From contig CM037587.1 in the NCBI GenBank assembly GCA_021018995.1, positions 72,612,604-72,676,603 on the forward strand: a DNA stretch of 64,000 nucleotides. Reading direction: 5' to 3'. Shown here piece after piece: positions 8,327-57,153 of the stretch; position 1 is the stretch's first letter; every line of letters begins with the position of its first letter. Below the pieces are notes generated by a model. It was not told the origin of the DNA and searched no databases. It saw nothing but the letters and a program-made list of their open reading frames with translations. The translations under genes were made by a program, and so were the position numbers. Source of the stretch: Chloranthus sessilifolius (taxonomy: Eukaryota > Streptophyta > Magnoliopsida > Chloranthales > Chloranthaceae).

Positions 8327-8538
8327 TGTAATATCCTAAAAAATTAAGCGTTTAACTTTGACCTCGAGATCCGTGTCCGATTGATCGTAGGTTTGACCAA
8401 GTAATGGTCAAACATTGAATACATGGAGTGATGAATTAACATAGTACGAATGTCACCGAAGTATGGTGTTTAGTGTGAGTTAGTGGTCACATACACCTAT
8501 CTCTGGTGTATGTGTTTAACACACAAGCAGTAGAGAGG

Positions 8539-8550
8539 ATATAAGGGTTT
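8539..8550 (+). promoter_or_regulatory. Element 1 LTR TATA box
   Basis: GATATAAGGG lies about 25 bp downstream of the CACATACACC/GGTGTATGTG inverted repeat and upstream of a GA-rich leader. Its position is conserved in Element 2 (GATAAAAGG near 22973). Probable core promoter for the genomic RNA. Confidence 0.6.
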
Positions 8551-8916
8551 AATAACCCTATTCTCCTTTTGTTTGGTTATTGAAGAGTTAAGAAGAGAGA
8601 GAGAACGCGAGAGAAGGTAACTAATTCCAAAGGAGTTATTGTGGTTGGATTGAGGGAAAGTGGAGCATTTATTATCGGATTCAAGGCGATTTGGGATCGT
8701 TGAAGCAAATGATGGAACCCTAGTCATCAATGCAACAAATCAACCCTTTGAAGAATTTATTAAGGTAAGTGTGATTTGATTTCAATACATAGAGAATGGA
8801 TGAATGAAATTCTGTCTAGCATGTGTAAAAGGATAGATTAAAGGCTTAGAAAAGAAAAGAAATGAGATTTGGAAGAACAGCCAGAAAGGGGGCTGAATCA
8901 GACCAAATCGATTAAT

Positions 8917-9376
8917 CAACATTGAGATTCGATTAATCGATTTTGGTCTGGAAGTTGAAAAGTCAAGTAAGCCCGATTTCGATTAATCGAATTGGATTTC
9001 GATTAATCGATTTGGATGTTCGATTAATTGATTTGGTAATCGACTAATTGACTGGGTACCTCCAGTGGCTGAAGAAACATGACCTGGGAAAATTGACTAA
9101 TCGAGTTGAGAAATCGATTAATCGACTTTGGGTTTCGATTAATCGATTTGGGATCGACTGGTCGATTTTGGATTTTCGACCACTCGATTTGAGAATCGAC
9201 CTTATTATGTTAGAGACTTCGATTAATCGATTTGGGATCGATTAATTGAATTTGAATCTCGATTAATCAATTTTGGGAATCGATTAATCGATTTGGGTTT
9301 CGATTAATCGATTTTGGGAATCGATTAATCGAATTGTGTTTCAATTAATCGATTTTGGGAATCGATTAATCGACTT
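8917..9376. repeat. TCGATTAATCGA palindrome array in the 5' LTR of Element 1
   Basis: About 20 copies of the 12-bp self-complementary motif TCGATTAATCGA and one- or two-base variants, at irregular 15-30 bp spacing. The spacers are mostly TTTGGG- or GGTTT-like. The same array recurs in the 3' LTR (19355-19825) and after pol (16179-16765). Irregular spacing and palindromic units exclude a CRISPR-type array. Confidence 0.95.
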
Positions 9377-10915
9377 AGGCAATTTTACCTAACTTTATAG
9401 TTTTACTTTGAGATTCATGGAGGGTCTAAGACCTTTTTCATTATGTCTGTAGTGATGTATTGCATGTGTTATAATGTACCTTAGGTGGTACGTGTAAAAG
9501 CGAGCACAAGGAGCCACGTGGGACCTTGATGCTTGGACCTTCAGAGAATTGAGGTAGAGAACACCCTGAGCATGTACTTTAATTGCAAGAGCATGTATGT
9601 AGTGATATGTTTATCATAAATTGAAAATGTTTTAACTATGAAAAGCTTTGCGAAAATGGGTGTGTGTGTGACACCAAGAATGTGATAAAGACATCTGTGT
9701 GATGCGAGTAACTAAGATCAAGAAATCTAATGAGAAGGAGACATCTCCAGGGGATGAGAAAGTAATAAATGGCATCTGTGTGATGCGAGTAAGTTATACA
9801 TCCCAGGGATGTATATCTGATTGAATAATTACTGTTGAGGCCTAATTGATATAAGATAGCACTTTACACGGTGAACAACTATATGTAAAGCACATGCTAT
9901 TTTTGTTATTTGAGGTTTGTTTAGGATACCCCACCGACGTGACGGGATACCCATGACTGACGCGACAGGATATCCGTGACCGGTATGGCGGCCAATCCGT
10001 ACACCAGTGCGGAGGTCTATCCGTACACAATAAGCACATCCCAGGGATGTTGAGATGAGTTTTAACCCCACTACCTATTGAGAAAGGGGCTTGAGTCGTA
10101 TTCTCAGGGAATACATTTTAACAACTATCTATTTAGACGACGATGAAGGGTATCTCATCGGGGTTCGATGCTATATTGCTCGGGGATTACTTAAGTTGAA
10201 GATTTAAGTTTTGCTTTAGGCCTGTTCAGTGTCATTCATGATAAATCAACAGTAAAGTAAGACATGCTAATTACCAGTGAACTTGAATGTAAATCATCAG
10301 TTTTAAACTGTTTTTCTAGCAAATGCATAGACTCATCATGCTTAGAATATCATGGAATATATGTGAGTTTTAATTTATATGTTCATTGTGTTGTTCCCTA
10401 TTGAGCTAGGATGTAGCTCACCCCCTTTAGACTATACGTCGCAGGTCCTTTGTTAGCTATAGCGGAGGCTTCGGGAGACGTAGATCCGGGTGATTCGGAT
10501 TACGTACCTAGAGATGAGTTGGAGCCTCCTCTCGAGGATTTCTTCTATGAGACTCTGCTGTGTACTTTGACAGAGAGTAGTTTTTGAGAGCTAATTGTAC
10601 GGCTTGGTATGTCAAGCCTTTATTTTTATCAAACAATGTAATTAGATAGACATTATTCTTTTTGACGAACCATCTGGGGTGATCTGTTTATCACCGATGG
10701 TTCAGATCGGTTCTCTGTTCATGCAGTGGCATGAAAGTAGAACTGTCTTTTGTTATGCCAGATGAGCATGTTACTTTTCCGCTTTATGAAATTAATTGCT
10801 TATTTATTTATTTGTGCTTGTTATACCAATGTTCCGTGCATGGCTTTGGGGCACAGTCTGGAGGATCGTACTGATGGCACGGGTTTTGAGGTGTCGAAAT
10901 CTGGGCTATCATAGT

Positions 10916-16178: not shown

Positions 16179-16765
16179 CCGATTAATCGATTTTCAAATC
16201 GATTAATCAATTTGGGAATTTGATTAATTGATTTTGGTCGATTAGTCAACCTGAGTGGAAATTTAATGAGGATTCAGGAAATGAAATAAGTGAAAATTTC
16301 GATTAATCGATTTGGGTTTCGATTAATCGATTTATGATTTCGATTAATCGATCTGGGGATTCGATTAATCGAGTAACATAAGAATTTTAGAAAATTTTGA
16401 AGAATGATATACGATTTCGATTAATCGAAGTGAAATTCGATTAATCGATTTGGAATTTCGATTAATCGAACTGGAGGTTCGACTAATCGAGTCACTTAAT
16501 GAATTTGGGAAAAATTTGAAGGACCTTACGATTTCGACTAATCGAAGTAAAATGCGATTAATCGATTTTAGAATTTCAATTAATTGAAGTGAATTTCGAT
16601 TAATCGACTAGCTCACACCAGTGAGCTCCAAAACTTAAAAATTTAAATGACTACGATTTCGATTAATTGAAATGGTTTCGATTAATCGATTTTGAGTTTC
16701 GATTAATCGATTTCGCGCGGTTGAACCTAGTTTTGAAACTCGATTAATTGACTTTAGAAATCGAT
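16179..16765. repeat. Post-pol TCGATTAATCGA palindrome array (Element 1)
   Basis: About 25 copies of TCGATTAATCGA-type palindromes between the chromodomain stop and a TATA box. Unlike the LTR arrays, blocks of three to five palindromes alternate with short unique stretches, e.g. a repeated GAAAATTT...GATTTCGATTAATCGAAGT pattern. The array ends about 20 bp upstream of the TATA box of the downstream ORF, so it sits where an upstream regulatory region would be. Confidence 0.93.
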
Positions 16766-16775
16766 TAATCGAATC

Positions 16776-17017
16776 GGGGCCTATATATATAAATCGAAGG
16801 GATTTTCTCCCCATTAGAAATCATTTGGAGTTCTTGCTTTTGCGCGCCTTCTTCTTCTTCTCTCCGACCGATTATTGAGCTAGGGTTTTGGGCATTTTGG
16901 ATCGAATTCGAAGTGAAATCACGTGACATTGGATCAAATACCTAAGGTAAACCCTAGATTTGAGTTCTTCTTAAATTTGAACTGTAAAACCCTAATTTTC
17001 TTCCATTTTCACCAACC
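16776..17017 (+). promoter_or_regulatory. Internal promoter and leader of the extra ORF (Element 1)
   Basis: GGGGCCTATATATATAAA (TATA at 16782-16793) is followed by a CT-rich leader and by telo-box-like motifs: AGCTAGGGTTTTGG, GTAAACCCTAGATTT, and GTAAAACCCTAATTT just before the ATG. Telo-boxes near a TATA box are typical of plant promoters of translation- and growth-related genes. AGGTAAACC near 16946 is also a potential splice donor. The same arrangement is present in Element 2. Confidence 0.6.
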
Positions 17018-18485
17018 ATGCCGCGTAAAATGCAGTTGTCTTTGAAGAAGGCAACCTCTAAGCTTCCGGTCCGGCGTAAGAACGCCGCACCGCCACCACC
17101 TACCCCATCACCGGTGAGGACTCCGTCACCGTCGGCATCGGATACCACATCCAGGTCGACGAGCGCGTCTTCCCGCAAGTCTTCTCCAATGCCACCACCA
17201 ATGTACTCCAACCCAACGAATGGTGGGCGACTAAGACTTTTGAGATCAAGTACATTATCGATCAAACCCTGTTTACAAACCCCGATGTACCGGGCGAGAC
17301 CCAGTGGGCTCGTAATTACCTTATCAAGGCCGGTCTCAGCAACCTCTTGAAACCAATCTGTGGGTCCTACTACCCTAGATTGGTCAGACTCTTTTACCAA
17401 GGGCTGACGGACGGCCCTACCGATGACATAGTCACGACCAAGATAGAGGGTCGTGACTATACATTCACTCGTCGCCACATCCACGAGGTTCTTGAATGCC
17501 ACCTCGACTTTGTACTCGAGACCACCCTCTTTCCACCCTTCGAGGAAGAGGTGAGATTTGAGGAGATAATGACCCGGATGACAAACAGGAAGAAGGGGTC
17601 GAGATCCTCTATTAGGAGGGTCGACCTTCCCCATTACATGTGGATGCTAGATTCCATAATCAAGTGCAACCTCTACCCGTTGCGTCACGACACCGAGCAG
17701 GTGGAGATGGTGCAACAGGCACTCTACGCAACCTTCTGTGGCTGTTGGTTTGATGCCACGATGATCATCCTCGAGGGGATGAGATACATTAAGCGCAAGT
17801 TGATGAAGGGCAACTTGAGGCCCAAGGAGAAGATGCCCTATGCTCGGCTCATCTCGAGCATGCTGGAGTGTTATTCAAACGCTCCAGAATATGCTATATC
17901 ACCCAATGAGGAGAGGGCTACGGACCGAGTGAAGAAATTCTCAAACTCTTCATGGAGCCGTAGTTACAATTTACTCAAGCGGACCCTACCGGCTCAGGGT
18001 TCAGCACCAGCAGGACCCACCCGTGGGGGGCACACCCCATTGAGCCACCAGCGGAGGGGGCACCCTCCCATACCACTGCCTCACCTATGCCACCAACGCA
18101 CTCTGCGATAGCCACACCGTCGTCTTCTTACCACCGGTGAGCGGCTCGCCCGACGCCTACCATCGACGACGTATTGGCCAGGATGGAGGCCAACAACGAG
18201 CAGATGAACCGGCGGATGAACTTTTTGATGTACCACACTCTACGGTATATCTATCCGTTGGACTACCAGCAGCACCTCGCGCAGCAGGAGGCATGGACTG
18301 CGGGTTGGACTGTCTTTCATACGGGTCCGATGTTCCATACGAGCACATCGGCTGCCGATGCATCCGGCTCGACGCCCCAGCAGCCCGAGCGGCCCACAGA
18401 GACGACCCAGCCACCACCCGGGCCACCAGTTCCGTCAGAGCAGCCCACCCTAGCATCAGATCAGCCAGGAGGGGGAACAGCGTGA
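17018..18485 (+). pseudogene. Extra ORF of Element 1, putative plant transposon-type protein (decayed)
   Basis: Sense-strand ORF downstream of pol, homologous throughout to 31409-32970 in Element 2. It starts MPRKMQLSLKK, with a basic segment KKATSKLPVRRKNA and a Pro/Ser-rich stretch. A frameshift near 17200 leads into the conserved domain (NPDVPGETQWARNYL, YYPRLVRLFYQGL, LPHYMWMLDSIIKCNLYP, MPYARLISSMLECY; about 17270-17880). A second disruption near 18000 precedes a C-terminal segment RMEANNEQMNRRMNF, a short coiled coil (from about 18178), and a Pro/Gln-rich tail. Function unknown. It resembles by eye the plant 'putative plant transposon protein' family; a profile search is needed. Confidence 0.7.
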
Positions 18486-18773: not shown

Positions 18774-21363
18774 TGTAATATCCTGAAAAATTAAGCGTTT
18801 AACTTTGACCTTGAGATCCGTGCCTGATTGATCGTAAGTTTGACCAAGTGATGTTCAAACATTGAATGCATGGAGTGATGAATTGACATAGTACGAATGT
18901 CACCGAAGTATGGTGTATAGTGTGAGTTACTGGTCACATACACCTATCTCTGGTGTATGTGTTTAACACACAAGCAGGAGAGAGGATATAAGGGTTTAAT
19001 AACCCTATTCCCCTTTTGTTTGGTTGTTGAAGAGTTAAGAAGAGAGAGAGAGAACGAGAGAGAAGGTAACTAATTCCAAAGGAGTTATTGTGGTTGGATT
19101 GAGGGAAAGTGGAGCATTTATTGTCGGATTCAAGGCGATTTGGGATCGTTGAAGCAAATGATGGAACCCTAGTCATCAATGCAACAAATCAACCCTTTGA
19201 AGGATTTATTAAGGTAAGTGTGATTTGATTTCAATACATAGAGAATGGATGAATGAAATTCTGTCTAGCATGTGTAAAAGGATAGATTAAAGGCTTAGAA
19301 AAGAAAAGAAATGAGATTTGGAAGAAACGACCGAAGAAGGGAAGTGAATCAGACCAAATCTATTAATCAACATTGAGATTCGATTAATCGATTTTGGTCT
19401 GGAAGTTGAAAAGTCAAGTAAGCCCGATTTCGATTAATCGAATTGGATTTCGATTAATCGATTTGGATGTTCGATTAATTGATTTGGTAATCGACTAATT
19501 GACTGGGTACCTCCAGTGACTGAAGAAACATGACCTGAGAAAATCGACTAATCGAGCTGAGAAATCGATTAATCAACTTTGGGTTTCGATTAATCGATTT
19601 GGGATCGACTGGTCGATTTTGAATTTTCGACCACTCGATTTGAGAATCGACCTTATTATGTTAGAGACTTCGATTAATCGATTTGGGATCGATTAATCGA
19701 ATTTGAATCTTGATTAATCAATATTGGGAATCGATTAATCGATTTGGGTTTCGATTAATCGATTTTGGGAATCGATTAATCGAATTGTGTTTCAATTAAT
19801 CGATTTTGGGAATCGATTAATCGACTTTGGCAATTTTAGCTAACTTTATAGTTTTACTTTGAGATTCATGGAGGGTCTAAGACCTTCTTCATTACATCTG
19901 TAGTGATGTATTGCATGTGTTATGATATACCTTAGGTGGTACGTGTGAAAGCGAGCACAAGGAGCCGCGTGGGACCTTGATGCTTGGACCTTCAGAGAAT
20001 TGAGGTAGAGAACACCCTGAGCATGTACTTTAATTGCAAGAGCATGTATGTAATGATATGTTTATCATAAATTAAAAATGTTTTAACTATGAAAAGCTTT
20101 GCGAAAATGGGTGTGTGTGTGACACTAAGAATGTGATAAAGACATCTGTGTGATGCGAGTAACTAAGATCAAGAAATCTAATGAGAAGGAGCATCTCCAG
20201 GGGATGAGAAAGTAATAAATGGCATCTGTGTGATGCGAGTAAGTTATACATCCCAGGGATGTATATTTGATTGAATAATTACTGTTGAGGCCTAATTGAT
20301 ATAAGATAGCACTTTACACGGTGAACAACTATATGTAAAGCACATGCTATTTTTGTTATTTGAGGTTTATTTAGGATACCCCACCGACGTGACGGGATAC
20401 CCACGACTGACGCGACAGGATATCCGTGACCGGTATGGCGGCCAATCCGTACACCAGTGCGGAGGTATATCCGTACACAGTAAGCACATCCCAGGGATGT
20501 TGAGATGAGTTTTAACCCCACCGCCTATTGAGAAAGGGGCTTGGGTCGTATTCTCAGGGAATACATTTTAACAACTATCTATTTAGACGACGATGAAGGG
20601 TATCTCATCGGGGTTCGATGCTATATTGCTCGGGGATTACTTAAGTTGAAGATTTAAGTTTTGCTTTAGGCCTGTTCAGTGTCATTCATGATAAATCAAC
20701 AGTAAAGTAAAACATGCCATTTACCAGTGAACTTGAATGTAAATCATCAGTTTTAAACTATTTTTCTAGCAAATGCATAGACTCATCATGCTTAGAATAT
20801 CATGGAATATGTGTGAGTTTTAATTTATATGTTCATTGTGTTGTTCCCTATTGAGCTAGGATGTAGCTCACCCCCATTAAACTATACGTCGCAGGTCCTT
20901 TGTTAGCAGCAGCGGAGACTTCGGGAGACGTAGATCCGGGTTATTCGGATTACGTGCCTGGAGATGAGTTGGAGCCTCCTCTTGTGGATTTCTTCTAGGA
21001 GACTCTGCTGTGTACTTTGACAGAGAATAGTTTTTTAGAGCTAATTGTACGGCTTGTTATGTCAAGCCTTTATTTTTGTCAAACAATGTAATTAGATAGA
21101 CATTATTCTTTTTGGCGAATCATCTGAGGTGATCTGTTTATCACCGATGGTTCGGATCGGTTCTCTGTTCATGCAGTGGCATGAAAGTAGAACTGTCTTT
21201 TGTTATGCCAGATGGGCATATTACTTTTCCACTTTATGCAATTAATTACTTATTTATTTATTTGTTCTTGTTATATCAATATTCCGTGTATGGGTTTGGG
21301 GCACGGTCTGGAGGATCGTGCTGATGACACGGGTTTCGGGGTGCCAAAATCTGGGCTGTCACA
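18774..21363 (+). repeat. Element 1 3' LTR
   Basis: A 2,590-bp copy of the 5' LTR with the same start (TGTAATATCC) and the end TGTCACA. The two copies are very similar by eye, differing mainly by transitions and a few small indels. The palindrome array is at about 19355-19825. Confidence 0.96.
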
Positions 21364-21823
21364 GCTACCTATTGGTTATCCCTATGGTATTAAATTTCGT
21401 GAACATCTCTTGTAACTTGAGGGGGTAAATTTAACTCTTAATAATTTTGTAGGTGTATTCATTTATTGTGGTGATAAAGTAGCTATAAGATCACCCATGA
21501 CAGATTCACCTATATGAGTATAGAAGTGAAGCCGCTTCAACAGAGATTCGGTCATCTCTCTGAGATACTCATGAAATTAGGATTTTAGTGCATAACTATA
21601 AAGCGCAAGCCTTATGTCACTAATGATTTAGGTCATAGTTATGGTATATGTAATTCTGGTTTTTTAGACAGGTTTAAGTTCAAAGCTATAAGCTACTTAA
21701 ATTCCTTACGAACTCTAAGTTGTATGGTCAAATGTTCAAAATGAATCGGTACCTCTGATGATGCTTAGTATGATCGCTCTGATACACAAATTTTTAGTTT
21801 GAAACTTTTAAATAGTGGGGGAT
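21364..21823 (+). mobile_element. Ty1/copia remnant resumed: 3' untranslated region and PPT
   Basis: Continuation of the copia element interrupted at 8326. The stretch lacks a long ORF and ends in the purine tract AAATAGTGGGGGAT immediately before TGTTAGA, a common copia PPT/3' LTR junction. Fusing 8326 with 21369 gives a smooth join, which supports one original element. Confidence 0.75.
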
Positions 21824-22761: not shown

Positions 22762-25275
22762 TGTAATAGCCCGAAAAATCACACTGAACTATAACCTCGG
22801 GATCCGTGCCCGATCAGTCACAGGTTTGACAAATTAGGAGTTCAATAGTTAGCGTAGAGTGTGATGAGTGAATGAGATGAGATGGTTTGTGAAGCTATGT
22901 GGTGTGTGTTGTGAATCTGAAGTCACATACACCTATTGAGGTGCATGTGCTCAACACACAAGCTAGGGGGGAGATAAAAGGGTTTAATAACCCTAAAACC
23001 AATAGCTTTGGTTGTTGAGAGAGAAGTAAAGAAGAGAGAGAGAGAGGAGTAAAGAGAGTGATAAAGTAATGAGTTATTGTGGGTGATCGAAAGGGAGATT
23101 CTAGCATTAAAGAGGCCGATTCTGCGCAAAGAATCCGTTCAAGCCAAAGCTGGAACCCTAGCCTTCCAACCACCTTATTTGAAATCAATTTGAGATTTGA
23201 TTAAAGGTAAATTTTTGTGAATAAAATGCATAGATGGTAGAGGTTAATTGTAGTTGAAAAATGGTTTAGATTGTAGGATGATGGTTTAGAAGAATAGAGG
23301 AAAAAGAATGGAAAAAGGTTGGGAAGACCAGCTCGAAAGGGGCTGAATCTGGCAATTTCGATTAATCGAAATTGGATTTCGATTAATCGAAATTGGCCAA
23401 GAAGTTGAAAAGTCAGAGGACCCCGACTTCGATTAATCGAATTGGGTTTCGATCAATCGACCTTGGTTTTCGATTAATCGATTTGGGTATCAATTAATCG
23501 ACTGGGAACCTCCAGTGGACCCCAGGGGCTGGAGGAAATGACTTGGGGAAAATCGACTAATCGAAAATGGGATTTCGATTAATCGATTTCAATTTTCGAT
23601 TAATCGATTTGGGATCGATTAATCGATTTTAGGAACTCGATTACTCGAATTGAGAATCGACTTGGCTGAACAGAGAATTTCGATTAATTGAATTAGGATT
23701 CGACTAATCGAATGAAAATCTCGATTAATCGATTTGAGAATCGATTAATCGATATTGACTTTCGATTAATCGATTAATCGAATCAGATTCGATTAATCGA
23801 TTTTGGAGTTCGATTAATCGACTGAGCTAATTTATGTTAACTTTTGAGTTTGACTTTAAGATTCTTGGAGGGTCTTGGACCTTCTTTATTGCATCCTTAG
23901 TGATGTGTTTCACATGTTATGTGGTACCATAGGTGGTACGAGTGAGCTAGTGCACAAGGAGCCACGTGGGACCTTGATGCATTGATCGAACGAAGACTTG
24001 AGGTAGGGAACACCTTGAACATGTACTTTATTTTACAAGAGCATGTATGTAGTGATATAGAATTCAAATTCAAATATTTATTGCTTAAGAATTGTGAAAA
24101 GTGTGTGTGAGTAAAACCCATAAGAGTAAGTATAATGAGCCATCCCCAGGGGATGAAGAAGTAAAGAGATAAGAGCATCAGGTGTGATGCAAGTAAATGG
24201 ATACATCCCAGGGATGTATCCAAGATTGAATCATGATTGATAGGGCCTAACTGATATAAGATAGCACACTTACACGGTGAATAACTATATGTAAGGCACC
24301 GATATTTTTGTTATTTGAGGTTTGATAGGGTACCCCACCGACGTGGCGGGATATCCCACATTACACGGCGGGATATCCGTGGACCGATCTGTTGGCGAAA
24401 CAGAAGCCGATCACGGAGGCTTATCCGTACATAGTAAGCACACCCAGTGTTGATTTGAGATAAGTGAAACCCGCCACCAATTCCTGTGAGAGGGCTTGGG
24501 TACTATATGGTATTCCCAGGGAATACGTTAAAAGTGTCTATATAGATGGCGATGAAGGGTATCTCATCGGGGCTGGATGCTATATTGCCCGGGGAGTACT
24601 TAAGTTGAAAGTTTAAGTTCTGCTTTAGGCCTTTTCAAATTATTCATGAGTAAATAAAAGACACGAGTAAACTACCGGAAATGTAATACTTTTAACTGTT
24701 TCATCGAATGATAACATCATGCATGGCATATCATGGAATATATGTGAGTAATAATTTATATGTTCAACGTGTTTTGTTCCCTATTGAGCTAGGATGTAGC
24801 TCACCCTAGACTATACGTCGCAGTCCACTACTAGCAGCCGAGGCTTCAGAGATGTCGACCACAGTGAGTCGGGCCTTGCGGCCGGCGACGAGTTGGAGCC
24901 ACCTCCTGAGGACTTCTTCTAGAGGACTCCGTTGTGCCGCTTTGAGGGCTTTTTGAGAGGGATTGTACGGCTTGGTATGTCAAGCTTTGTTTTGGTTAAA
25001 CTATGTATATATTGAGTTTGAGATTATTCTTTTGGGGCGAACCATCCGTGATGATTGCTATCATCGATGGTTCGGATCGGTTCTCCATTCATGCAGAGGC
25101 ATGAGGGTAGAACTGTCTTTTGGAGAATTGCTTTAAAATAGATTTAAATTCTGCAGTTTCATTATTTTTTCATGCATGCTTGATATGCCAATGTTTCGTG
25201 TTTAGCTAAGGGGCACGGTGAAGATGATCGTGCTGATGGCACGGGTTTCAGGGTGCCGAAATCCGGGCTGTCACA
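22762..25275 (+). repeat. Element 2 5' LTR
   Basis: TGTAATAGCC...TGTCACA, 2,514 bp. Features in order: a CACATACACC/GGTGCATGTG inverted repeat (22924-22949), GATAAAAGG TATA-like box (about 22973), GA-rich leader, AAAGGTAAAT donor-like site at 23207, palindrome array (about 23355-23825), CCCAGGG hairpins (24140-24530), the AGCTAGGATGTAGCTCACC box (about 24786) and the TCATCGATGGTTCGGATCGG block (about 25060). About 60 bp shorter than the 3' copy through small deletions. Confidence 0.96.
23355..23825. repeat. TCGATTAATCGA palindrome array in the 5' LTR of Element 2
   Basis: About 18 copies of TCGATTAATCGA or near variants, spaced mostly 15-30 bp. Near 23763 two motifs overlap (CGATTAATCGATTAATCG); the matching place in the 3' LTR (near 34271) has the motifs separated, so the array evolves by small deletions between units. 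Confidence 0.95.
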
Positions 25276-25277
25276 GT

Positions 25278-25366: not shown

Positions 25367-26752
25367 ATGCAGCCGCAAATGTCATCTAGAGGAAGAGGCC
25401 GACCAAGAGGAGGCCAGCAGAGGAGTCTACGTAGTGGAGATGATTACATCTCTCCTACTAATAGAGTGCCTTTAGGAGGTACTGAGGCCCTAGGGGGCAG
25501 TAGTAGTCGACAGCGCGATGAAGAGGATCGAGATCATCAGGATCAAGATCTAAGAGAGCAAGAAAGAGTGAGAGAAAGATAAGAAGATAGAGAGGAGCGA
25601 CAAATGATGATGCACACTATAGAGACTATGGCAGCTGCCATGGCACAACAAGCCGCATCCTTTGCAGCTCATGCGTCAAGAGAACAGCAGCCACCTACAC
25701 CACCTGTAGGACCTGCGCTGCCTGTGCCCTCATCTTTTACAGAGTTTAGGAGGATGAGACCTTCTTCATTTTCTGGACAGGCAGACACAATGGCCGCTGA
25801 GAACTGGCTGATGGAGATGGAGAAAGTCTTTAGCGTGCTGACATGCACAGAAGATGAGAGTGTGAGATGTGCAGCTTATATGTTGGATGGGGAGGCTGGG
25901 CCTTGGTGGAAGTCCGTGATACGGACTCGGGCTCAGGAGACCCCAGAGTTGCCTTGGACTTGGGAGGAGTTTGTTGAGGAGTTCAACAAACAATATTTTT
26001 CGGAAGTGGTGAGGAACCAGCTTGAGATACAATTTCTACAGTTAGTGCAAGGGAGAATGACAGTGAGAGAATATGGGGTGGAGTTTCTACGACTTGCCCA
26101 TTTTTCTCCGGATTACGTCGCTACTGAAGTGATGAAATCCAAGAGGTTTCAGCAAGGATTGAAGCCTGAGGTTAGGGGAGGAGTAGCTCCATTTCAATTG
26201 AGGACCTATGAAGAGGTCATGAGTAAGGCATTGGTTGTGGAAGAAGAAAATACAAATAGATATAGACAGAGAGAGCAGCAGCGGGGAGGAAATGAACAAG
26301 GAAGGACAGGGACCTATGAACCGATGAACAAAAAGCCGAGGTTCATGGCCCAAAATCAGAGACCACGCCAGGAGGTTTCGGGAGGCCAACAAGAACAACA
26401 CCAACAGAGGTTTCCATTACTTGCGTCGGGGAGACCTTTACGCTATGAGAGCCCTACCATGTCTACTGGCGCCACTATCACACAGGGTTCTCGTACTGTT
26501 TCTTCCGCACCTCGGGAGACTTGCGCAAAGTGTGGCAAGCCTCATAGGACGGTGGATTGCAGATCGAGAACTAGGGGTTGTTTTCGATGTGGCAAGGTGG
26601 GCCACCTGATCAAGGATTGCCCCGAGACGGATAAATGAAAAGGCGATTTGATTCTTGACCACGACCCATTCAAGCAAGGAAGCCGATCGTTCAGGGGAGA
26701 GCCTATGCAGTCACTGCTCAGGAAGCAGGGAACGTGCATGACGTCATCCAAG
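25367..26752 (+). pseudogene. Element 2 gag (one stop, one late frameshift)
   Basis: ATG at 25367 gives MQPQMSSRGRGRPR. A single in-frame TAA at 25580-25582 interrupts the charged N-terminal segment, and the same frame then continues from 25604 for 344 codons. The gag capsid domain (FRRMRPSSFSGQADTMAAENWL, WTWEEFVEEFNKQYF) lies at about 25740-26110. Zinc knuckles CAKCGKPHRTVDC and CFRCGKVGHLIKDC lie at about 26524-26625. A stop at 26636-26638 and a small frameshift precede the segment (RKPIVQGRAYAVTAQE) that leads into the donor-like site at 26753. Role: particle formation and RNA binding. Confidence 0.92.
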
Positions 26753-26920
26753 GTGAGATTTTTTTAAAATTAAAGAAAATCCCGTTTCATTAAAATTTTA
26801 GATAGAGAAGGTGCATGCATTAGGAATGGTATAGATTCTTTTTCTCAGTACTAAATCTATATGTGAATTAAGGGTGTATTTTGATGTGTAAATTATTGTA
26901 TGTATGTATGTATACTATAG
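26753..26920 (+). other. Putative intron between gag and protease (Element 2)
   Basis: CAAG then GTGAG at the donor; TATACTATAG then GTACT at the acceptor. Removal joins VIQ to GTLTIYEKG at the same codon as in Element 1. The length differs (168 against 145 bp) and most of the interior is diverged, but both splice-site-like ends and one internal block are conserved. Alternatives are a sequence insertion in the common ancestor or an internal entry site for pol translation. Confidence 0.5.
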
Positions 26921-28555
26921 GTACTTTAACTATTTATGAAAAAGGATGCTTTGTTGGATATGACGCTAGAGTGTTGATAGACCCAGGGTCTACCCACTCA
27001 TTCGTCACTCCACGTCTCGCCAAGAAGATGAAGATTGTTCCAGAGGCGTTGGATTTCGTCCTATCTGTGTCTATTCCGACTGGAGAGTTAGTAGACACGG
27101 AGTTAGCTTGCAAATCCATCATTGTAGTAGTTCGAGACTTAGAGGTGCATGAATTAAAAGCAAAGTTGATACTGTTAGACATGCAGGGGTTTGATGTGAT
27201 CCTTGGCATGGACTGGTTGGCGCAGCATTGTGCAATCGTCGATTGCAAGGACAAGGTAGTCATTTTCAGACCCAACACAAGACGATCATTTGGTTTCAAG
27301 GAGTGAGGTCGTCATCTGTGCCACTGATCTCAGTAGTCAGGGCCGAGAAAATGATCAGAAAGGGTTGCAGTGGATACTTGGCTTTCTTAAAGGAGGACAA
27401 GGAAGGAAGGAATATCATTTCTGAGATAGCAGTTGTGCGAGACTTCGCCGACGTGTTTCCAGAGGAATTACCTGGATTACCTCCAGAAAGGGAAGTAGAA
27501 TTCGCCATTGACTTAGCACCAGGAACGGAGCCTATTTCGAAAGCGCCTTATAGAATGGCTCCTGCTGAGTTGAAGGAGTTAAAGGAACAACTGCAAGAAC
27601 TTATGGACAAGGGATTTGTTAGACCGAGCGTGTCTCCATGGGGAGCACCGGTCTTGTTTGTCAAGAAGAAGGATGGGTCAATGCGACTATGCATTGACTA
27701 TCGACAATTGAACAAACTCACTGTGAAGAACCGCTACCCTTTGCCTAGAATTGACGATCTATTCGACCAACTGCAAGGAGCAAGGTATTTTTCTAAAATC
27801 GACCTGAGATCTGGATATCATCAGTTGCGAGTCAAGGCAGAGGACATCCAAAAGATAGCTTTTCGGACACGGTATGGACACTATGAATTCCTTGTGATGC
27901 CGTTTGGATTGATGAATGCTCCGGCGTCGTTTATGGATCTGATGAACCGAGTGTTTAAACCACACTTGGACTCTTGCGTCGTAGTATTTGTTGATGATAT
28001 ACTGATATACTCCAAATCCAAGACGGAGCACGAAGAACATTTGAGGATTGCTCTACAGACGCTACGTGAACACCAATTGTACGCCAAACTCAGCAAGTGT
28101 GAGTTTTGGTTGGAAGAGGTTAGCTTTTTGGGACATGTTGTCTCAAAACATGGTGTCACTGTAGATCCAGCAAAGATAGAAGCAGTGGTTAAATGGGAGC
28201 AACCAAAGACAGTGACCGATGTCCGAAGTTTTCTGGGCTTAGCAGGCTATTATCGACGTTTCGTCAAGGGGTTTTCAAAGATATCAGGACCTCTCACAAA
28301 GCTGACACGAAAAGATTCAAGGTTTGAGTGGAGTGAGGCATGCGAGAAGAGTTTTCAAGAACTCAAAACGAGACTCACTTCGGCTCCAGTGTTAGCGATT
28401 CCTTCAGGCAGTGGAGGATACGCCGTGTACAGCGACGTGTCATACAATGGCCTTGGTTGTGTACTCAACCAACACAAGAAGGTGATAGCTTACGGATCAA
28501 GACAATTGAAGAACACGAGAAAAATTACCCGACTCATGACTTGGAACTAGCGTAG
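26921..28555 (+). pseudogene. Element 2 pol: protease, RT, start of RNase H
   Basis: Protease: VLIDPGSTHSFVTPRLAKK (about 26970-27030) and DVILGMDWL (about 27195-27225). A one-base frameshift near 27300 leads to the frame (27309-28550) with the full [41 protein letters not shown] at 27987-27998, then the connection and [12 protein letters not shown]. RNase H begins at [16 protein letters not shown] (about 28420) and is lost at a frameshift near 28505. RT looks catalytically complete. Confidence 0.93.
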
Positions 28556-28779
28556 TCATTTTATATCAAGATTTGGAGACATTACTTGTATGGTGAGACT
28601 TTTGAAATTTTCACGATCATAAGAGCCTCCGATATCTCTTCACACGTAAAGAGCTCAACATGAGAGCAGAGGGTGGATGGAATTCCTCAAGGATTACGAT
28701 TGCTACAATACCATCCAGCAAAGGCGAATGTAGTAGCCGACGATTGAGTCGGAAAGGTTCAAATTTCGCTTAGCTTTGT
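28500..28779 (+). pseudogene. Element 2 RNase H end with clustered small deletions
   Basis: Aligns by eye to Element 1 14110-14420 ([15 protein letters not shown] region and the DALSRK end) but is missing a base or a few bases at many places, e.g. TTTTCACGATC for TTTTCACCGATC and CCGACGATTGAG for CTGACGCCTTGAG. The sequences on both sides are well preserved. The cluster may be real decay or local consensus error. Confidence 0.7.
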
Positions 28780-30325
28780 TTGATTTTGGGTATGCACCGA
28801 TGGAAATTATTGGAAGACCTGGCATTCTACGAGGCGAACATTGAGTCAAAAGCCACCGGATCCTTTTTGGCTAACATATCAGTAAAGCCAGTGATATTTG
28901 AGCATATCCACGATCTACAGATGAAAGATCCGGCATTAACAAAGATTCATCAAGACGTGAGTGAAGGCATCAGGTCGGACTTCTCGGTTAAAGAAGATGG
29001 TTCTTTATTGTTTAAGGGCCGTCTATGCATTCCGGACAATACCGATCTAAGACGAACGATTCTTGATGAGGCCCATAAGTCAAATTATGCTATCCACCCT
29101 GGTAGCACCAAAATGTACCAAGATTTGAAAAAGAACTACTGGTGGAGAGGACTGAAGCAAGACGTGGCCGAGTACGTGTCACGGTGTTTGACTTGTCAAC
29201 AAGTGAAGGTTGATCATAGACATCCTGCTGGACTATTGCAACCTTTACCAATTCCAGAATGGAAGTGGGAATCGATCTCAATGGACTTCATTGTGGGATT
29301 ACCCCGTACTGCCAAGAGACACAATGCCATTTGGGTCGTTGTAGACCGATTGACCAAATCAGCGCACTTTTTGCCATACAATACTACGTATACAGCAGGA
29401 AGACTGGCAGACTTATACATGAAGGAGATTGTAAGATTACATGGGATTCCAAGCAGCATAGTTTCAGATCGTGATCCACTATATACATCCAAGTTTTGGA
29501 AGAAATTTCAAGAAGGAATGGGAACACGACTAGACTTTAGTTCAGCTTTCCATCCTCAAACTGATGGGCAGACAGAGCGAGTGAACCAAGTAATAGAAGA
29601 CATGCTCAGAGCGTGCATGCTAGATATGCAGGATCTTTGGGATGAGTATCTACCGCTGCTCGAATTAGCATACAACAACGCTTCAAATGAGCATTGGCAT
29701 GGCACCGTATGAAGCTCTGTATGGACGACGATGCAAGTCACCCCTCAATTGGGAGGAAACAGGTGAGAAATTTGTGTTAGGGCCAAAACTACTTGAAGAT
29801 AACGCCACCGTTGTTCGAATTATCAGAGAAAGGCTGAAGTCAGCACAGAGTAGACAGAAAAGTTATGCCGATATGAAGCGGACTAGTGTCGACTATAAAG
29901 TGGGTGAGCACGTGTTTGTCAAAGTGTCACCTATGAAAGGCGTAATGAGATTTGGCAAGAGAGGGAAGTTAAGCCCACGTTATGTTGGACCATTCAAAAT
30001 TTTGGGACGCGTAGGTGAAGTTGCGTATCGCATTAGTTTACCACTGCTGTTTGATCGAGTACATAACGTTTTCCACATATCGATGCTCAGAAAGTATGTG
30101 AATGATCCGTCTCATGTGTTAGGAAAACAACCTATGGAGATGTGTGAGGACATGAGCATGATAGAGGAACCAGTGGAAATCTTGGATCGAAAGGAACAAC
30201 TACTACGCACTAAAGTGATTCCCTTAGTGCTTGTTCGGTGGAACAATCATCCAAAAGAAGAGGCTACTTGGGAAAGAGAGGCTGATGTGAAGGAACAATA
30301 TCCAGCCGTGTTTCCAACGACGTGA
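28780..30325 (+). pseudogene. Element 2 pol: integrase and chromodomain
   Basis: First frame 28780-29712 and second frame 29687-30325, separated by a frameshift near 29685. The zinc-binding H/H and C/C residues are present (AHKSNYAIH; CLTCQQVK). The core carries the first Asp in SMDFIVGLP (about 29280), the second in VSDRDPLYTSKF (about 29465) and Glu in DGQTERVNQ (about 29570), so the DDE triad is intact. The C terminus has the VGEHVFVKVSPMKG and GPF-type motifs and the chromodomain VLVRWNNHPKEEATWERE (about 30228-30280). It would insert the cDNA copy into chromatin. Confidence 0.94.
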
Positions 30326-30534: not shown

Positions 30535-31180
30535 AAAACCGATTAATCGAATTTCAAATCGATTAATCGATTTGGAATTTCGATTAATCGATTATGTTCG
30601 ATTGGTCGACTGGCACCTGCCAGTGACTGGAAATTTGAAAAAGAGTTAGAACAGACATAGAATGCAATTTCGATTGATCGAGTTATAATTTTGATTAATC
30701 GATTTGGGATCGATTAATCGATTTTGGAAATTCGATTAATCGATTTGGGATTTCGATTAATCGAGCTGGAAGTTTGATTGATCGAATTACTAAAGGGACT
30801 TGGAAGAAATATGAAGTCAGAGGAACGATTTCGATTAATTGAAGTGGAATTCGATTAATCGAAGTAGAATTCGATTAATCGAATAACTTAAAGAATCCTG
30901 AAAATTTTGGAAGTTACTGCACGATTTCGATTAATCAAAGTGAATTTTGATTAATCGATTTTGAAATTTTGATTAATCGAAATGGATTTCGATTAATCGA
31001 CTGGCTCGCGCCAGTGAGCTAAAAAACTTAAGTTTTTAAACGGATACGATTTCGATTAATCGAAATGTTTTCGATTAATCGAATTTGACTTTCGATTGAT
31101 CGATTTGAGAAATCGATTAATCGATTTTGCGCGACTTAACCTAGTTTTGAATCTCGGTTAATCGATTCTGAATTTCGATT
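30535..31180. repeat. Post-pol TCGATTAATCGA palindrome array (Element 2)
   Basis: About 25 palindromes, intact or with one or two changes, ending about 15 bp before the internal TATA box. Same position as 16179-16765 of Element 1, but individual spacers have diverged more than the palindromes themselves. Confidence 0.93.
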
Positions 31181-31189
31181 AATCGAGCC

Positions 31190-31408
31190 GGGGCCTATAT
31201 ATAAAAATTTGGGGATTTCATTCCCCATTTTAAATCATTTAAGCTTGGGATTTTTGGGCGCTTCATCTTCTTCCTCTTCTCCGACCATCCCAAGACTCTA
31301 GGGTTTGATTTCCGATTCGATCGCATTCAAGGCTCCAGAACCCACGGTAAACCCTAATTTCGCACTTTCCCTTCAATTTGAACTAGCTAAACCCTAGATT
31401 TTCTAAAA
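31190..31408 (+). promoter_or_regulatory. Internal promoter and leader of the extra ORF (Element 2)
   Basis: GGGGCCTATATATAAAAA (TATA at 31196-31206), then a CTTCTTCCTCTTCTCCGACC leader and telo-box-like motifs CTCTAGGGTTTGA, GGTAAACCCTAATTT and GCTAAACCCTAGATT before the ATG at 31409. The layout is conserved with Element 1. CACGGTAAACC could also be a 5' splice site. Inferred to drive the extra ORF separately from the LTR. Confidence 0.6.
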
Positions 31409-32970
31409 ATGCCGCCCAAAACCCGGTTGTCTTCGAAGAAGGCAACCTCTAAGTTGCCGGTTAGGCGTAAAAATGCCGCACCACCACCACCTACCCCATC
31501 GCCGGTGAGGACTCCGTCACCGTCGACATCGGAGACCACCTCCGATTCGAGGAGCGCATCTATGCGCGAGTCTTCCTGCGAATCAACCCCGATGCCCCCA
31601 CCACCCACTAATGTGGTACAACCAAATGAATGGTGGGCCGCAAAGACCTTTGAGGTCGAATACATTATAGACCCTACCCTTTTCACAAATCCCGATGTAC
31701 CGGGCGAGACCCAATGGGCTCGAAACTACCTTAATAACGCCGGTCTCGGTAACCTTCTCAAACCAATCCGAGGTTCTTACTACCCTAGATTGGTGAGATT
31801 ATTCTATCAAGGGCTTGTGGACGGCCCGACCGATGATGTGATCAAGACCACTATCGAGGGTCGCGACTACATGATCACACGTCGTCATATACACGAGGTG
31901 CTCGAGTGCTACCTCGATTTCACCCATGAGACCACCCTATTCCCACCCTTCGAGGAGGAACCTCGCTTCGAGGAGGTCATGACCCGCATGACAAATGGTA
32001 AAAAGGGGTCGGGCTCCTCCATAAAGAGGGTTGACCTTCCCCACTATATGTGGATGCTTGACTCGGTGGTCAAGTGTAATCTATACCCTATGCGCCACGA
32101 CACCGAGCGCGTGGAGAAAGTGCAACAGGCACTTTACTCGGCCTTCTATGGCCGGTGGTTTGATGCCACCATGCTCATCCTCGAGGGGATGAGGTACATA
32201 AAGGGCAAGCTAATGAAGGGCAACCTCCGGCCCAAGGAGAAGATGCCCTACGCTCGCCTCATATCGAGCATGTTGGAGTGCTACTCCAACGATCCATCCT
32301 ACGCCGTCTCTCCTCATGAAGAGAGGGCTACGGACTGCGTGAAGACATTCTCCATGTCTTCATGGGCCCGTAGCTACAACTTGCTAAAGCGGACCCTACC
32401 GGCTCCGGGTCCCGCTCCAGTAGCCCCAGCAGTAGCACCACCGCCACCCCCACCACCACGAGACCCACCTGGGTGGGTGGGGCACACCGCCAGCACGAGC
32501 CATCCATGGAGAGGGCCACCTCTCACACAGCAGCCTCACCGACACCGCCAGCCCACTCCGCGCCCGCGACACCCACCTCATCCTACCGCCGACGTGCCGC
32601 TTCGTCAGGACCAACCATAAAGGAGGTGTTGGCCCGTATGGAGGCCAACAATGAACGGATGAATCGGAGGATGGACTTCCTCCTCTTCCACACCCTCCGC
32701 CACATCTACCCGACCTCACCGCCACTCGCGGAGGAGGAGGAGGACAGCCAGACGACGACCTTCCATAGAGGACCCGTCTTCCATCCTACCATAGCCACTA
32801 CAGACGCGGCTCCTTCCACATCTATCTCCGCTCCACCGACCGAGACGCCGCAGCCACAGCCGACTATCCAACCAAAGACAGCCACCACCACCACGCCAGG
32901 CTCCTCCGGACCAGCCAGAGCACCCCACCTCACATGGAGCAGCCCGCCCAAAGACCCACCCGCCTCCTGA
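31409..32970 (+). pseudogene. Extra ORF of Element 2, putative plant transposon-type protein
   Basis: About 520 codons in two overlapping frames (31409-32620, then 32473-32970), so one frameshift near 32470. N terminus: basic, NLS-like KKATSKLPVRRKNA and Pro-rich (residues 1-70). The conserved domain at about residues 75-325 has WWAAKTFEVEYIIDP, NPDVPGETQWARNYL, YYPRLVRLFYQGL, a RDYMITRRHIHEVLECYLD helix, LPHYMWMLDSVVKCNLYP and MPYARLISSMLECY. A Pro/Ala-rich linker and a predicted coiled coil VLARMEANNERMNRRMDF near the C terminus precede a Thr/Pro-rich tail. No protease, RT or DDE motif. By eye closest to the 'putative plant transposon protein' domain; function unknown. Confidence 0.72.
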
Positions 32971-33251: not shown

Positions 33252-35825
33252 TGTAATAGCCTGAAAAATCACACTGAACTGTAACCTCGAGATCCGTGCC
33301 CGATCGGTCACAGGTTTGACAAATTAGGAGTTCAATAGTTAGCGTAGAGTGTGATGAGTGAATGAGATGAGATGGTTTGTGAAGCTATGTGGTGTGTGTT
33401 GTGAATCTGAAGTCACATACACCTATTGAGGTGCATGTGCTCAACACACAAGCTAGGGGAGAGATAAAAGGGTTTAATAACCCTAAAACCAATAGCTTTG
33501 GTTGTTGAGAGAGAAGTAAAGAAGAGAGAGAGAGGAGTAAAGAGAGTGATAAAGTAATGAGTTATTGTGGGTGATCGGAAGGGAGATTCTAGCATTAAAG
33601 AGGTCGATTCACAAGAAAGAACTGCCGTTCAAGCCAAAGCTGGAACCCTAGCCTTCCAACCACCTTATTTGAAATCAATTTGAGATTTGATTAAAGGTAA
33701 ATTTTTGTGAATAAAATACATAGATGGTAGAGGTTAATTGTAGTTGAAAAATGGTTTAGATTGTAGGATGATGGTTTAGAAGAATAGAGGAAAAAGAATG
33801 GAACAAGGTTGGGAAGACCAGCTCGAAAGGGGCTGAATCTGGCAATTTCGATTAATCGAAATTGGGTTTCGATTAATCGAAATTGGCCAAGAAGTTGAAA
33901 AGTCAGAGGACCCCGACTTCAATTAATCGAATTGGGTTTCGATTAATCGACCTTGGTTTTCGATTAATCGATTTGGGTATCGATTAATCGACTGGGAACC
34001 TCCAGTGGACCCCAGGGGCTAGAGGAAATGACTTGGGGAAAATCGACTAATCGAAAATGAGATTTCGATTAATCGATTTCAATTTTCGATTAATCGATTT
34101 GGGATCGATTAATCGATTTTAGGAACTCGATTACTCGAATTAAGAATCGACTTGGCTGAACAGAGAATTTCGATTAATCGAATTAGGATTCGATTAATCG
34201 AATGAAAATCTCGATTAATCGATTTGAGAATCGATTAATCGATTTGAGAATCGATTAATCGATATTGACTTTCGATTAATCGATTTTGGAAATCGATTAA
34301 TCGAATCAGATCCGATTAATCGATTTTGGAGTTCGATTAATCGACTGAGCTAATTTATGTTAACTTTTGAGTTTGACTTTAAGATTCTTGGAGGGTCTTG
34401 GACCTTCTTTATTGCATCCTTAATGATGTGTTTCACATGTTATGTGGTACCATAGGTGGTACGAGTGAGCTAGTGCACAAGGAGCCACGTGGGACCTTGA
34501 TGCATTGATCAAACGAAGACTTGAGGTAGGGAACACCTTGAACATGTACTTTATTTTACAAGAGCATGTATGTAGTGATATAGAATTCAAATTCAAATAT
34601 TTATTGCTTAAGAATTGTGAAAAGTGTGTGTGAGTAACACCCATAAGAGTAAGTATAATGAGCCATCCCCAGGGGATGAAGAAGTAAAGAGATAAGAGCA
34701 TCAGGTGTGATGCAAGTAAATGGATACATCCCAGGGATGTATCCAAGATTGAATCATGATTGATAGGGCCTAACTGATATAAGATAGCACACTTACACGG
34801 TGAATAACTATATGTAAGGCACCGATATTTTTATTATTTGAGGTTTGATAGGGTACCCCACCAACGTGGCGGGATATCCACGACTGACACGGCAGGATAT
34901 CCGTGACCGATACGGCGGCGAAACCGTAAGCCAGTACGGAGGCTTATCCGTACATAGTAAGCACACCCCAGGGGTGTTGATTTGAGACAAGTGAAACCCT
35001 GCCACCAATTCCCAGGGGAGAAGGGCTTGGGTACTATATTGTATTCCCAGGGAATACGTTAAAAGTGTCTATATAGATGACGATGATGGGTATCTCATCG
35101 GGGCTCGATGCTATATTGCTCGGGGATTACTTAAGTTGAAAGTTTAAGTTTTGCTTTAGGCCTTTTCAGCATTATTCATGAGTAAATAAAAGACACGAGT
35201 AAACTACCAGTAAAATGTAATACTTTTTAACTGTTTCATCAGTAATTGCATAGACACATCATGCATGGCATATCATGGAATATATGTGAGTAATAATTTA
35301 TATGTTCAACTGTGTTTTGTTCCCTATTGAGCTAGGATGTAGCTCACCCTATAGACTATACGTCGCAGGTCCACTACTAGCAGCGGCCGAGGCTTCAGGA
35401 GACGCTGACCCTGGTGAGTCGGACCTTGCGGCCGGCGACGAGTTGGAGCCACCTCCTGAGGACTTCTTCTAGAGGACTCCGTTGTGCCGCTTTGAGGGCT
35501 TTTTGAGAGGGATTGTACGGCTTGGTATGTCAAGCCTTGTTTTGGTTAAACTATGTATATATTGAGTTTGAGATTATTCTTTTGGGGCGAACCATCCGTG
35601 ATGATTGCTATCATCGATGGTTCGGATCGGTTCTCCATTCATGTAGAGGCATGAGGGTAGAACTGTCTTTTGGAGAATTGCTTTAAAATAGATTTAAATT
35701 CCGCAGTTTCATTATTTTTTCATGCATGCTTGATATGCCAATGTTCCATGCTTAGCTAAGGGGCACGGTCAAGATGATCGTGCTGATGGCACGGGTTTCG
35801 GGGTGCCAAAATCCGGGCTGTCACA
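33252..35825 (+). repeat. Element 2 3' LTR
   Basis: A 2,574-bp copy of the 5' LTR; starts TGTAATAGCC and ends TGTCACA, followed by TAAGT. Palindrome array at about 33845-34340. It retains the perfect CCCAGGG hairpins at 34664-34678, 34722-34744, 34963-34977 and 35041-35057, some of which are damaged in the 5' copy. Confidence 0.97.
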
Positions 35826-42813: not shown

Positions 42814-43429
42814 GATTCCCCTCTTTGGTATCCGATCACTAGTGATCGTATGCCAAAGAAAAGAGACATCCGAAGAGGCCCAAGGTATTACTGACGGGTC
42901 CGCTGCATTCAGAACAAACTTCAAACATCAGGTGAGTAACATGGTGAGAAAACGAAAGCCCTGGAGTGCCAGGCTAATCATTCGTTTCTCGAGGTAATCG
43001 GTTCCCAAGCGCTTAGCGACATTACTGGGCATAACCGAGGTGGAATGAGTTACAAACTCCCTATAGTCGGGAAAGATATTCACTTCTCGGGATGATTTTG
43101 AAGGTATTTGATGTTTAAGATTTATTCTGAATTCAACAATATCGTAAGTAGGAGGGGTGATCGACCCACATTCAAAGATAGGCGTGAAGTAAACATACGC
43201 AAGGCTCCACAGTTTGCGTCCAATCCTATAAGGCATTTGATGACCTCATTGGATTATTCGCGGGTGCCCCTGCAGAAAGCAGGGTTCGAGATCTTTGGGC
43301 GAACCCATCAATCCCAAAGTTTATTTAGCATGACCACCTGAGCAAAGCGAATAGATGTCACAACGCTTTTTGGGAGTACGCGCTATTTTTCTGAAAGCAT
43401 GCCTCAGCTCAGCATGACCTAGAGTATCC

Positions 43430-46228: not shown

Positions 46229-46372
46229 TTACCCGTGACGCCCTTTCGGGTTTTCACCACGTCCATGGGTTCAGCTCTCTTACCCCAAGCGCCCTTTTGG
46301 GTTTTCACCTGGTCTGCACAAGCCCGCTGTTTTTACCCGTAATGCCCTTTCGGGTTTTCACCACGTCCATCT
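46229..46372. repeat. Three-copy GGGTTTTCACC repeat
   Basis: Three units of about 35 bp, TTACCCGTRAYGCCCTTTCG followed by GGTTTTCACC, the middle one diverged. Separated by CATGGGTTCAGC and CAAGCCCGCTG-like spacers. Non-coding. Confidence 0.75.
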
Positions 46373-48903: not shown

Positions 48904-48936
48904 TTTCTGAGTGACGTACGTGATGTCGATTTCAGA

Positions 48937-50478: not shown

Positions 50479-50818
50479 TTTGATTAAGGCATCTTTTTGT
50501 GGGACATTTTCTGGAATTTTAAATGACGATATTTTTGGACTTTGAATTTTTTCAATGTTTTTGAGATTTTTGTTCTCTTCTATGTTTTTGAGATTTCCGT
50601 TTTCTTCGGAGACAGGCCCTTGGTAAGGCGGGTTGCTATATACACAGGGTATTGCCTGCCAAGGGCTTATCTCACTTTTTATAGGTTATTTTTTTTTAGG
50701 AAACATGCGCCAAACTTTAGGCCACTTCCTGCTTCCAGGGTTTGGGGCAAAGATGCCCAGATTGCACTGAGGGGTGCTTCCTTACATTGGGATGGAGGGT
50801 CTTTGGTCATATCATGGC

Positions 50819-57151: not shown

Positions 57152-57153
57152 TC

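Follow-up and report, generated by a model that had tools for sequence, protein, structure and literature searches.

The question raised by this locus is what an additional protein-coding region, carried in sense orientation downstream of pol, does for the retrotransposon that contains it. Two complete LTR elements (E1 and E2), each with such an open reading frame (ORF), are present in the stretch of DNA that was analysed (64,000 nucleotides, hereafter the window), and their main parts are as follows.

8327..10914, forward strand: 5' LTR of E1, 96.0% identical to 18774-21364 with gaps counted
18774..21364, forward strand: 3' LTR of E1, placed by LTR alignment, element ends and flanking duplication
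22762..25276, forward strand: 5' LTR of E2, 94.5% identical to 33252-35825 with gaps counted, flanking duplication TAAGT
25604..30325, forward strand: gag-pol of E2 in several frames, with a chromodomain at the C-terminus, from the ORF list and domain scan
33252..35825, forward strand: 3' LTR of E2, placed by LTR alignment, element ends and flanking duplication

The 5-bp flanking duplications are TAAGT/TAAGT for E2 and GTTAC/GCTAC (one mismatch) for E1, and both elements have the primer site TGGTATCAAAGC behind the 5' LTR and a purine tract ahead of the 3' LTR. The overall identity of E1 and E2 is approximately 74%, and they are therefore treated as two subfamilies. LTR-LTR distances (K2P, without gaps) of 0.039 and 0.036 in the two elements correspond to insertion ages of 1.4-1.5 My at an assumed rate of 1.3e-8 per site per year, and to twice that at half the rate. 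Among the ORFs scanned, matches to Retrotrans_gag, RVT_1 and Chromo were obtained in E1 and E2, together with SH3_Tf2-1, and an integrase match (Integrase_H2C2) was obtained in E2; the Chromo match scored 27.7 bits in E1, above the cut-off of 25.1, and 24.5 bits in E2, slightly under it. With gag, reverse transcriptase (RT), integrase and chromodomain all present, the E1/E2 family is a chromovirus (Ty3/gypsy), which we take, as a guess from the long LTRs and the tRNA-Met-like primer site, to belong to the Tekay clade. The window also contains a third LTR-like direct-repeat pair (41207-42813 and 57154-58756, 93% identical); on its minus strand (47722-51433), this third element has RNase H-like and integrase zinc matches and, in a separate ORF, a G-patch domain, which at 41.4 bits exceeds the cut-off.

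The additional ORFs of E1 and E2 lie behind pol at the following positions.

17018..18485, forward strand: extra ORF of E1 in three frames, with the core piece open at 17221-18108
31409..32620, forward strand: extra ORF of E2, 403 codons open, with a basic N-terminus, a PF20167-like core (residues 112-263) and a proline-rich linker
32473..32970, forward strand: C-terminal piece of the E2 extra ORF in another frame, with a conserved, helical-looking segment

An earlier note on this DNA had described 17018-18485 and 31409-32970 as homologous sense regions of about 520 codons. The homology was confirmed; the length holds for the family, in which 13 of 28 copies are open over 498-563 codons counted from the MPPKT start, but not for the two window copies, both of which are frame-broken. 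When the 403 residues of E2 were searched against the 2.17-Gb source genome, the best 103 of 55,700 first-look candidates were scored and all 103 passed as matches, so that the ORF is not confined to these two elements; in 33 of the 103 the frame is open over 491-574 codons and the match is without an internal stop. The 28 copies analysed are 8 loci from the search and 20 fetched loci (picked for an open frame or for lower identity), minus two duplicates, plus E1 and E2. Among the 26 of these in which its frame was determined, the C-terminal segment lies in the same shifted frame in 14 copies, in the frame of the core in 11 and in the third frame in one, and the excess of one shifted frame probably arises because the query included the shifted tail of E2. 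The proline/alanine codon repeats of the linker (e.g., 32400-32470) differ in length among copies, and a DNA alignment of 26 copies places these changes at differing points; a programmed frameshift, or two-protein, reading of the ORF was rejected because the length changes fall at different places.

Selection on the ORF was assessed across these copies. In the core (alignment columns 67-335), dN was lower than dS in all 378 pairs of the 28 copies, with means of 0.045 and 0.503 and a ratio of 0.089 rather than one near 1, in a set drawn from the best hits of a protein search, hence biased to intact copies, E1 and E2 being exempt. Third positions account for 71% of the core changes; over the first 66 alignment columns the ratio was 0.161, and 297 of 300 pairs had a dN smaller than their dS. 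Between E1 and E2, the core has a dN of 0.10 and a dS of 1.13-1.17 (ratio 0.09), with 35, 18 and 102 changes at the first, second and third codon positions; when the same alignment is read in the other two frames, dN (0.24-0.28) exceeds dS (0.12-0.16). The third-position excess between copies that had been noted earlier is thus real and specific to the coding frame. A like pattern was observed over 31 codons of the C-terminal segment (E1 vs E2, dN 0.16, dS saturated), and the core lies close to the RT of the same two elements (dN 0.068, dS 1.09, ratio 0.063). Over all 171 RT pairs the ratio is 0.29 compared to 0.089 for the extra ORF, a difference to be read with the knowledge that the ORF copies were chosen for similarity and open frames while the RT pieces were unselected, which leaves the E1/E2 pair as the only fair comparison (the RT set had 22 stretches, of which two were unmatched and one, sharing under 120 codons, was set aside). 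The extra ORF is a protein-coding gene that has been under selection in the past. Furthermore, most of the divergence between E1 and E2 predates their insertions, which suggests that the constraint operated during element replication.

The LTR and array DNA of E1 and E2 differ by only about 25-31%, which makes the dS of the coding regions unusually high; when dN is set against the non-coding distance (0.3-0.4) instead, it still amounts to about one third of it or less. As a separate observation, the synonymous distance of approximately 1.1 (ORF, 17221-17985 vs 31631-32395; RT) is about three times the LTR and array DNA distance of 0.3-0.4, and a fast decay of methylated third positions or a hidden constraint on the LTRs could account for this.

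The protein was then compared with known families. Residues 112-263 of E2 match PF20167 (Transposase_32) with an E value of 1.5e-8 and 35.2 bits, and the scores of 35.2 and 33.4 bits for the window copies and 23.4-35.2 bits for four others lie below the Pfam gathering cut-off of 45 bits. No domain other than PF20167, and so neither DUF1985 nor DUF287, was found at E values up to 1 in the four open-copy proteins scanned. With a two-row profile of the window copies, three of 7,991 scored candidates passed (E 3.4e-12 to 6.1e-9), and all three are annotated as PF20167; these homologues, one of them from Camellia sinensis, are 27-29% identical to the query and have the blocks YPRLVR..YQ and R..LP in common with it. 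The yield of homologues outside the source genome was zero with a single-sequence query, three with the two-row alignment and one with a five-row alignment, and viral contigs gave no match to the protein and none to a pair of the palindromes described below. The "putative plant transposon protein" family suggested earlier is therefore supported by the annotation of the homologues, but the score remains under the Pfam threshold. The N-terminus is basic, with 7-8 K/R among the first 24 residues, and proline makes up 11-15% of the 11 proteins compared; towards the C-terminus, the segment around VLARMEANNERMNRRMDFLLFHTLRHIY shows strong conservation and looks helical and suited to dimerisation. 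A PDB sequence search gave no match, the AlphaFold models were weak (mean pLDDT 37.8 and 54.0) and Foldseek gave no match at E <= 0.001, and a known DNA-binding fold was recognised in none of the PDB sequence, Pfam and fold searches. The product is thus a diverged member of the Transposase_32 (PF20167) family, and it has no membrane segment.

These results bear on the reading of the ORF as an envelope-like gene or as a functionless captured relic. Its place downstream of pol and its sense orientation are those of env-like ORFs (PMC7264820, as far as its available text goes); however, a 19-residue window with a mean Kyte-Doolittle value above 1.2, as for a membrane helix, occurs in none of the 11 proteins, and the strong constraint specific to the coding frame speaks against a relic. 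Both versions are thus considered highly improbable. The origin proposed earlier, a captured cellular or DNA-transposon gene, was not borne out: the same domain is reported in a 3' sense ORF of sunflower Athila (PMC11728184, in part), and transfer from one LTR retrotransposon to another would be no less likely a source.

The DNA ahead of the ORF suggests a different kind of role. The putative TATA boxes and the palindrome arrays are located as follows.

8929..9373, forward strand: array in the E1 5' LTR, 10 perfect TCGATTAATCGA
16179..16772, forward strand: internal array of E1, 11 perfect TCGATTAATCGA
16782..16793, forward strand: putative internal TATA box of E1
19380..19824, forward strand: array in the E1 3' LTR, 10 perfect TCGATTAATCGA
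23358..23821, forward strand: array in the E2 5' LTR, 13 perfect TCGATTAATCGA
30539..31186, forward strand: internal array of E2, 12 perfect TCGATTAATCGA, the last ending 9 bp before the TATA box
31196..31206, forward strand: putative internal TATA box of E2
33848..34344, forward strand: array in the E2 3' LTR, 16 perfect TCGATTAATCGA

The two TATA boxes and the AAACCCTA telo-boxes in the leaders of both ORFs, which the earlier note had described, are present. The window has 72 copies of the perfect 12-bp palindrome TCGATTAATCGA, compared to 0.00 expected from shuffles, and all 72 sites fall within six arrays, four in the LTRs and two between pol and the TATA box of the ORF; the third LTR element (41207-58756) has no TCGATTAATCGA. 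Across the 28 copies, 1,119 sites were counted (747 perfect, 319 with one mismatch and 53 with two). Among the 1,064 spacings below 120 bp, 823 fall within 18-23 bp, 601 of them at 20-21 bp, so that the preferred spacing is about two helix turns, and information content falls sharply at both edges of the 12-bp unit. An array of 17-28 sites precedes the ORF in 28 of 28 copies, and an LTR array was present in 27 of 28, some of them truncated by the end of the locus. The distance from the last site (two mismatches or fewer) to the TATA box is 9 bp in 21 of 22 copies and 8 bp in the remaining one; the TATA pattern was unmatched in six of 28 copies, three of which have a variant box at the same place. 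From this arrangement, the extra ORF looks to have a conserved promoter-like stretch of its own. The commonest departures from the palindrome are C to T at the second position (9%) and G to A at the eleventh (5%), with other positions at 5% or less, and decay of CG after insertion may be a partial cause.

Tandem units of about 21 bp whose copy number varies among copies could also be a functionless satellite-like repeat, spread by slippage or conversion. Slippage predicts spacers as alike as the palindromes, and this prediction was examined by taking the perfect palindromes of one sequence only and scoring the agreement of the other, a design that limits circularity. Between E1 and E2, in three array pairs and both directions, the palindromes are 93-99% identical and the rest of the arrays 69-75% (six Fisher tests, p from 1.1e-8 down to 2.5e-14, which are not independent, as neighbouring bases are treated as independent and the 5' and 3' LTRs are near-copies). 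When the LTRs of the same element were compared, identity was 98-99% at palindromes and 96-98% elsewhere, which was not significant in any of four tests, E1 leaning the same way as the comparison between elements (0.992 vs 0.958, p 0.09). With sites of two mismatches or fewer admitted, the values were 0.90 vs 0.67-0.72 when E1 was set against E2, and 0.975/0.959 and 0.973/0.986 when the comparison was made inside one element. It should be noted that gap columns were excluded from these values, and that gaps hit palindromes and spacers in varying proportion because one copy may have entire units that the other lacks. A satellite would not account for two elements that differ by 25-31% outside the perfect palindromes and by 1-7% at them while no such contrast exists within an element, and it is regarded as very unlikely. 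The contrast between elements, with none of significance within them, indicates that the palindromes were held during replication and apparently drift after insertion; as judged from these alignments, the palindromes were under selection.

The LTR arrays are laid out differently from the internal ones, and one further feature is needed here.

33464..33485, forward strand: putative TATA-like core ATAAAAGGGTTTAATAACCCTA of the E2 LTR, upstream of the LTR array

The TATA-like stretch lies near LTR offset 210 and reads ATAAAAGGGTTTAATAACCCTA in E2 and TATAAGGGTTTAATAACCCTA in E1, and its TTTAATAACCCTA part is present in 18 of 28 LTR rows, in a table that omits two loci (L020 and L025) and the E1 3' LTR, which the start pattern missed. 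The LTR array starts near offset 590, some 370 bp beyond the TATA-like box; near offset 435 (33694 in E2, 8762 in E1), 28 of 28 rows, 26 of them distinct, have an AAGGTAA that resembles a splice donor. Unlike the internal array, the LTR array is probably downstream of the start of LTR transcription; splicing of the LTR leader is possible, and the palindrome array of the LTR may then lie in an intron. This layout would suit arrays that act at the level of RNA or chromatin with no dedicated protein, as sites of RNA dimerisation or packaging or as CG-bearing, nucleosome-setting repeats, given that the LTR array is probably transcribed and that the 12-nt units are self-complementary. The internal array, however, lies upstream of its TATA box at a near-fixed 9 bp and so outside the RNA of that promoter, and the 20-21 bp spacing and the sharp limits of the 12-bp unit resemble protein sites on DNA, which makes an RNA- or chromatin-level role quite unlikely. 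Because the array is common to the internal promoter region and the LTRs, regulation at the DNA level is indicated; the earlier statement that nothing in the sequence decides between possible roles was too pessimistic. An anti-silencing role, which was among those guessed at there, or a regulatory one fits best, and an envelope-like one is disfavoured by the hydropathy result given above.

If protein binding is the function of the arrays, the binder could be of the host or of the element. In the source genome, 109,399 pairs of perfect palindromes with 7-10 bp between them were counted, compared to zero for the reversed-pattern control, and all 14 array places inspected belong to the E1/E2 family (13 LTRs and one stretch between gag-pol and the extra ORF), in a small and clustered sample of 14 of the 15 places listed on contig 1, one near 238,790 being left out. 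These 14 places suggest that the palindrome arrays are private to the family. A host transcription factor might nevertheless use the arrays to activate the LTR and the internal promoter, with the extra protein serving another purpose, such as assembling particles or countering RNA silencing. The internal arrays adjoin the TATA box and the palindromes were selected, and the ATTAAT centre of the palindrome would presumably suit a homeodomain-type dimer. Furthermore, the extra protein is without a recognisable DNA-binding domain, and non-regulatory roles are considered possible for sense extra ORFs in a review (PMC7264820, in its accessible part). The confinement of 14 of 14 inspected arrays to one family is a better fit to an element-private binder, however, and some 20 sites per array would exceed a typical host enhancer. 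Activation by a host factor is therefore viewed as somewhat unlikely, and it is the alternative to be taken most seriously.

The reading preferred here, to which a probability of about 0.45 is assigned, is that the product of the extra ORF binds the palindromes, with an activating or anti-silencing effect. The extra ORF would be a functional chromovirus gene transcribed from its own TATA promoter, and its product, of Transposase_32 type with a basic N-terminus, would bind the TCGATTAATCGA arrays as a nuclear dimer. Since arrays are found both immediately ahead of the TATA box of the ORF and within every LTR, the protein would regulate its own gene jointly with the promoter of gag-pol, coupling the output of gag-pol to its own level. 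The likeliest sense of this control would be activation through lost silencing at the CG-bearing arrays, as with VANC of VANDAL elements, or, alternatively, direct transactivation, as with Tas of foamy viruses. The use of the TATA box, the identity of the binder, its nuclear and dimeric state and the choice of activation over repression are all inferred. Counting against such a regulator are the missing recognisable DNA-binding fold, the position of the LTR array downstream of the TATA-like box and the chance that a host factor could own the motif. A broader form of the proposal is held more tentatively, at somewhat below even odds: the family would possess a self-contained regulon or anti-silencing system, with its own regulator, an internal promoter and operator arrays in both promoter regions, of an origin independent of VANC and Tas, and would own most of the approximately 10^5 operator pairs of the genome, provided that the 14 arrays sampled are representative.

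Catalogues of the extra ORFs in plant LTR retrotransposons have existed for years without settling what these ORFs do (PMC7264820), and a 2026 sunflower paper leaves open, in the text available, whether extra-ORF proteins shape the methylation of their own elements (PMC12844716). Among the matches listed in the open-licence literature, no description of this arrangement of chromovirus ORF and arrays was found, and the only occurrence of TCGATTAATCGA was in a publication on a Vibrio. The extra ORF now comes with a candidate target, a strict, selected 12-bp palindrome at both promoter regions, so that the question of its role can be put as a simple one of binding. Should the protein prove to be the binder, the most abundant class of mobile DNA in plants would include an activator or anti-silencer private to its element; this would help explain how the family became so abundant, and VANC-like systems would have arisen a second time from an unrelated source.

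The known systems differ in how much of this arrangement they have in common with E1 and E2; for each, the comparison covers the part of the cited work that was available. The 3' sense extra ORF of sunflower Athila encodes a Transposase_32 (PF20167) protein with a predicted nuclear signal, and it is like the E1/E2 ORF in domain name and in place and orientation after pol (PMC11728184). The E1/E2 carrier, in contrast, has a chromodomain, and its ORF has a TATA box with a palindrome array that is also found in the LTRs; the available text on Athila describes nothing like this array (PMC11728184). Tekay elements of sunflower and grasses likewise have a conserved extra ORF in a chromovirus lineage, but theirs lies 5', upstream of gag, and the sunflower one is without a known domain (PMC11728184), whereas the E1/E2 ORF is downstream of pol with a weak PF20167 match. 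Retand elements have TRP28 ORFs and tandem repeats in the interval from pol to the 3' LTR, and resemble E1 and E2 in these repeats and in a transposase-named, possibly DNA-binding extra protein; they differ in that the ORFs are antisense, the carrier is not a chromovirus, the domain is PF04195 and repeats in the LTRs are unmentioned in the text available (PMC11963269).

By analogy, the nearest proven parallel to the proposed regulator is VANC21, an element-encoded protein that acts at motif arrays in non-coding DNA, where density matters and methylation is lost (PMC5735166). The likeness lies in an element-encoded protein and in dense, largely family-private arrays, formed through tandem repeats, in non-coding parts (PMC5735166), and such arrays are found in E1 and E2, with 14 of 14 places in the family. 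VANDALs, however, are Mu-like DNA transposons, VANC carries DUF1985/DUF287, which the four extra-ORF proteins scanned did not match, and its motif, YAGTATTAY, is non-palindromic; binding and loss of methylation, both hypothetical for E1 and E2, were demonstrated there (PMC5735166). In layout, the nearest parallel would be foamy-virus Tas, on which the internal and LTR promoters both depend (PMC8670036, PMC4929722). One element-encoded regulator for both promoters is the feature that E1 and E2 would have in common with it (PMC8670036, PMC4929722), and at the level of sequence they do have a promoter-like region upstream of a 3' gene, with sites that recur in the LTR; the difference is that the LTR sites of E1 and E2, at offset 590 or so, lie downstream of the TATA-like box at about 210.
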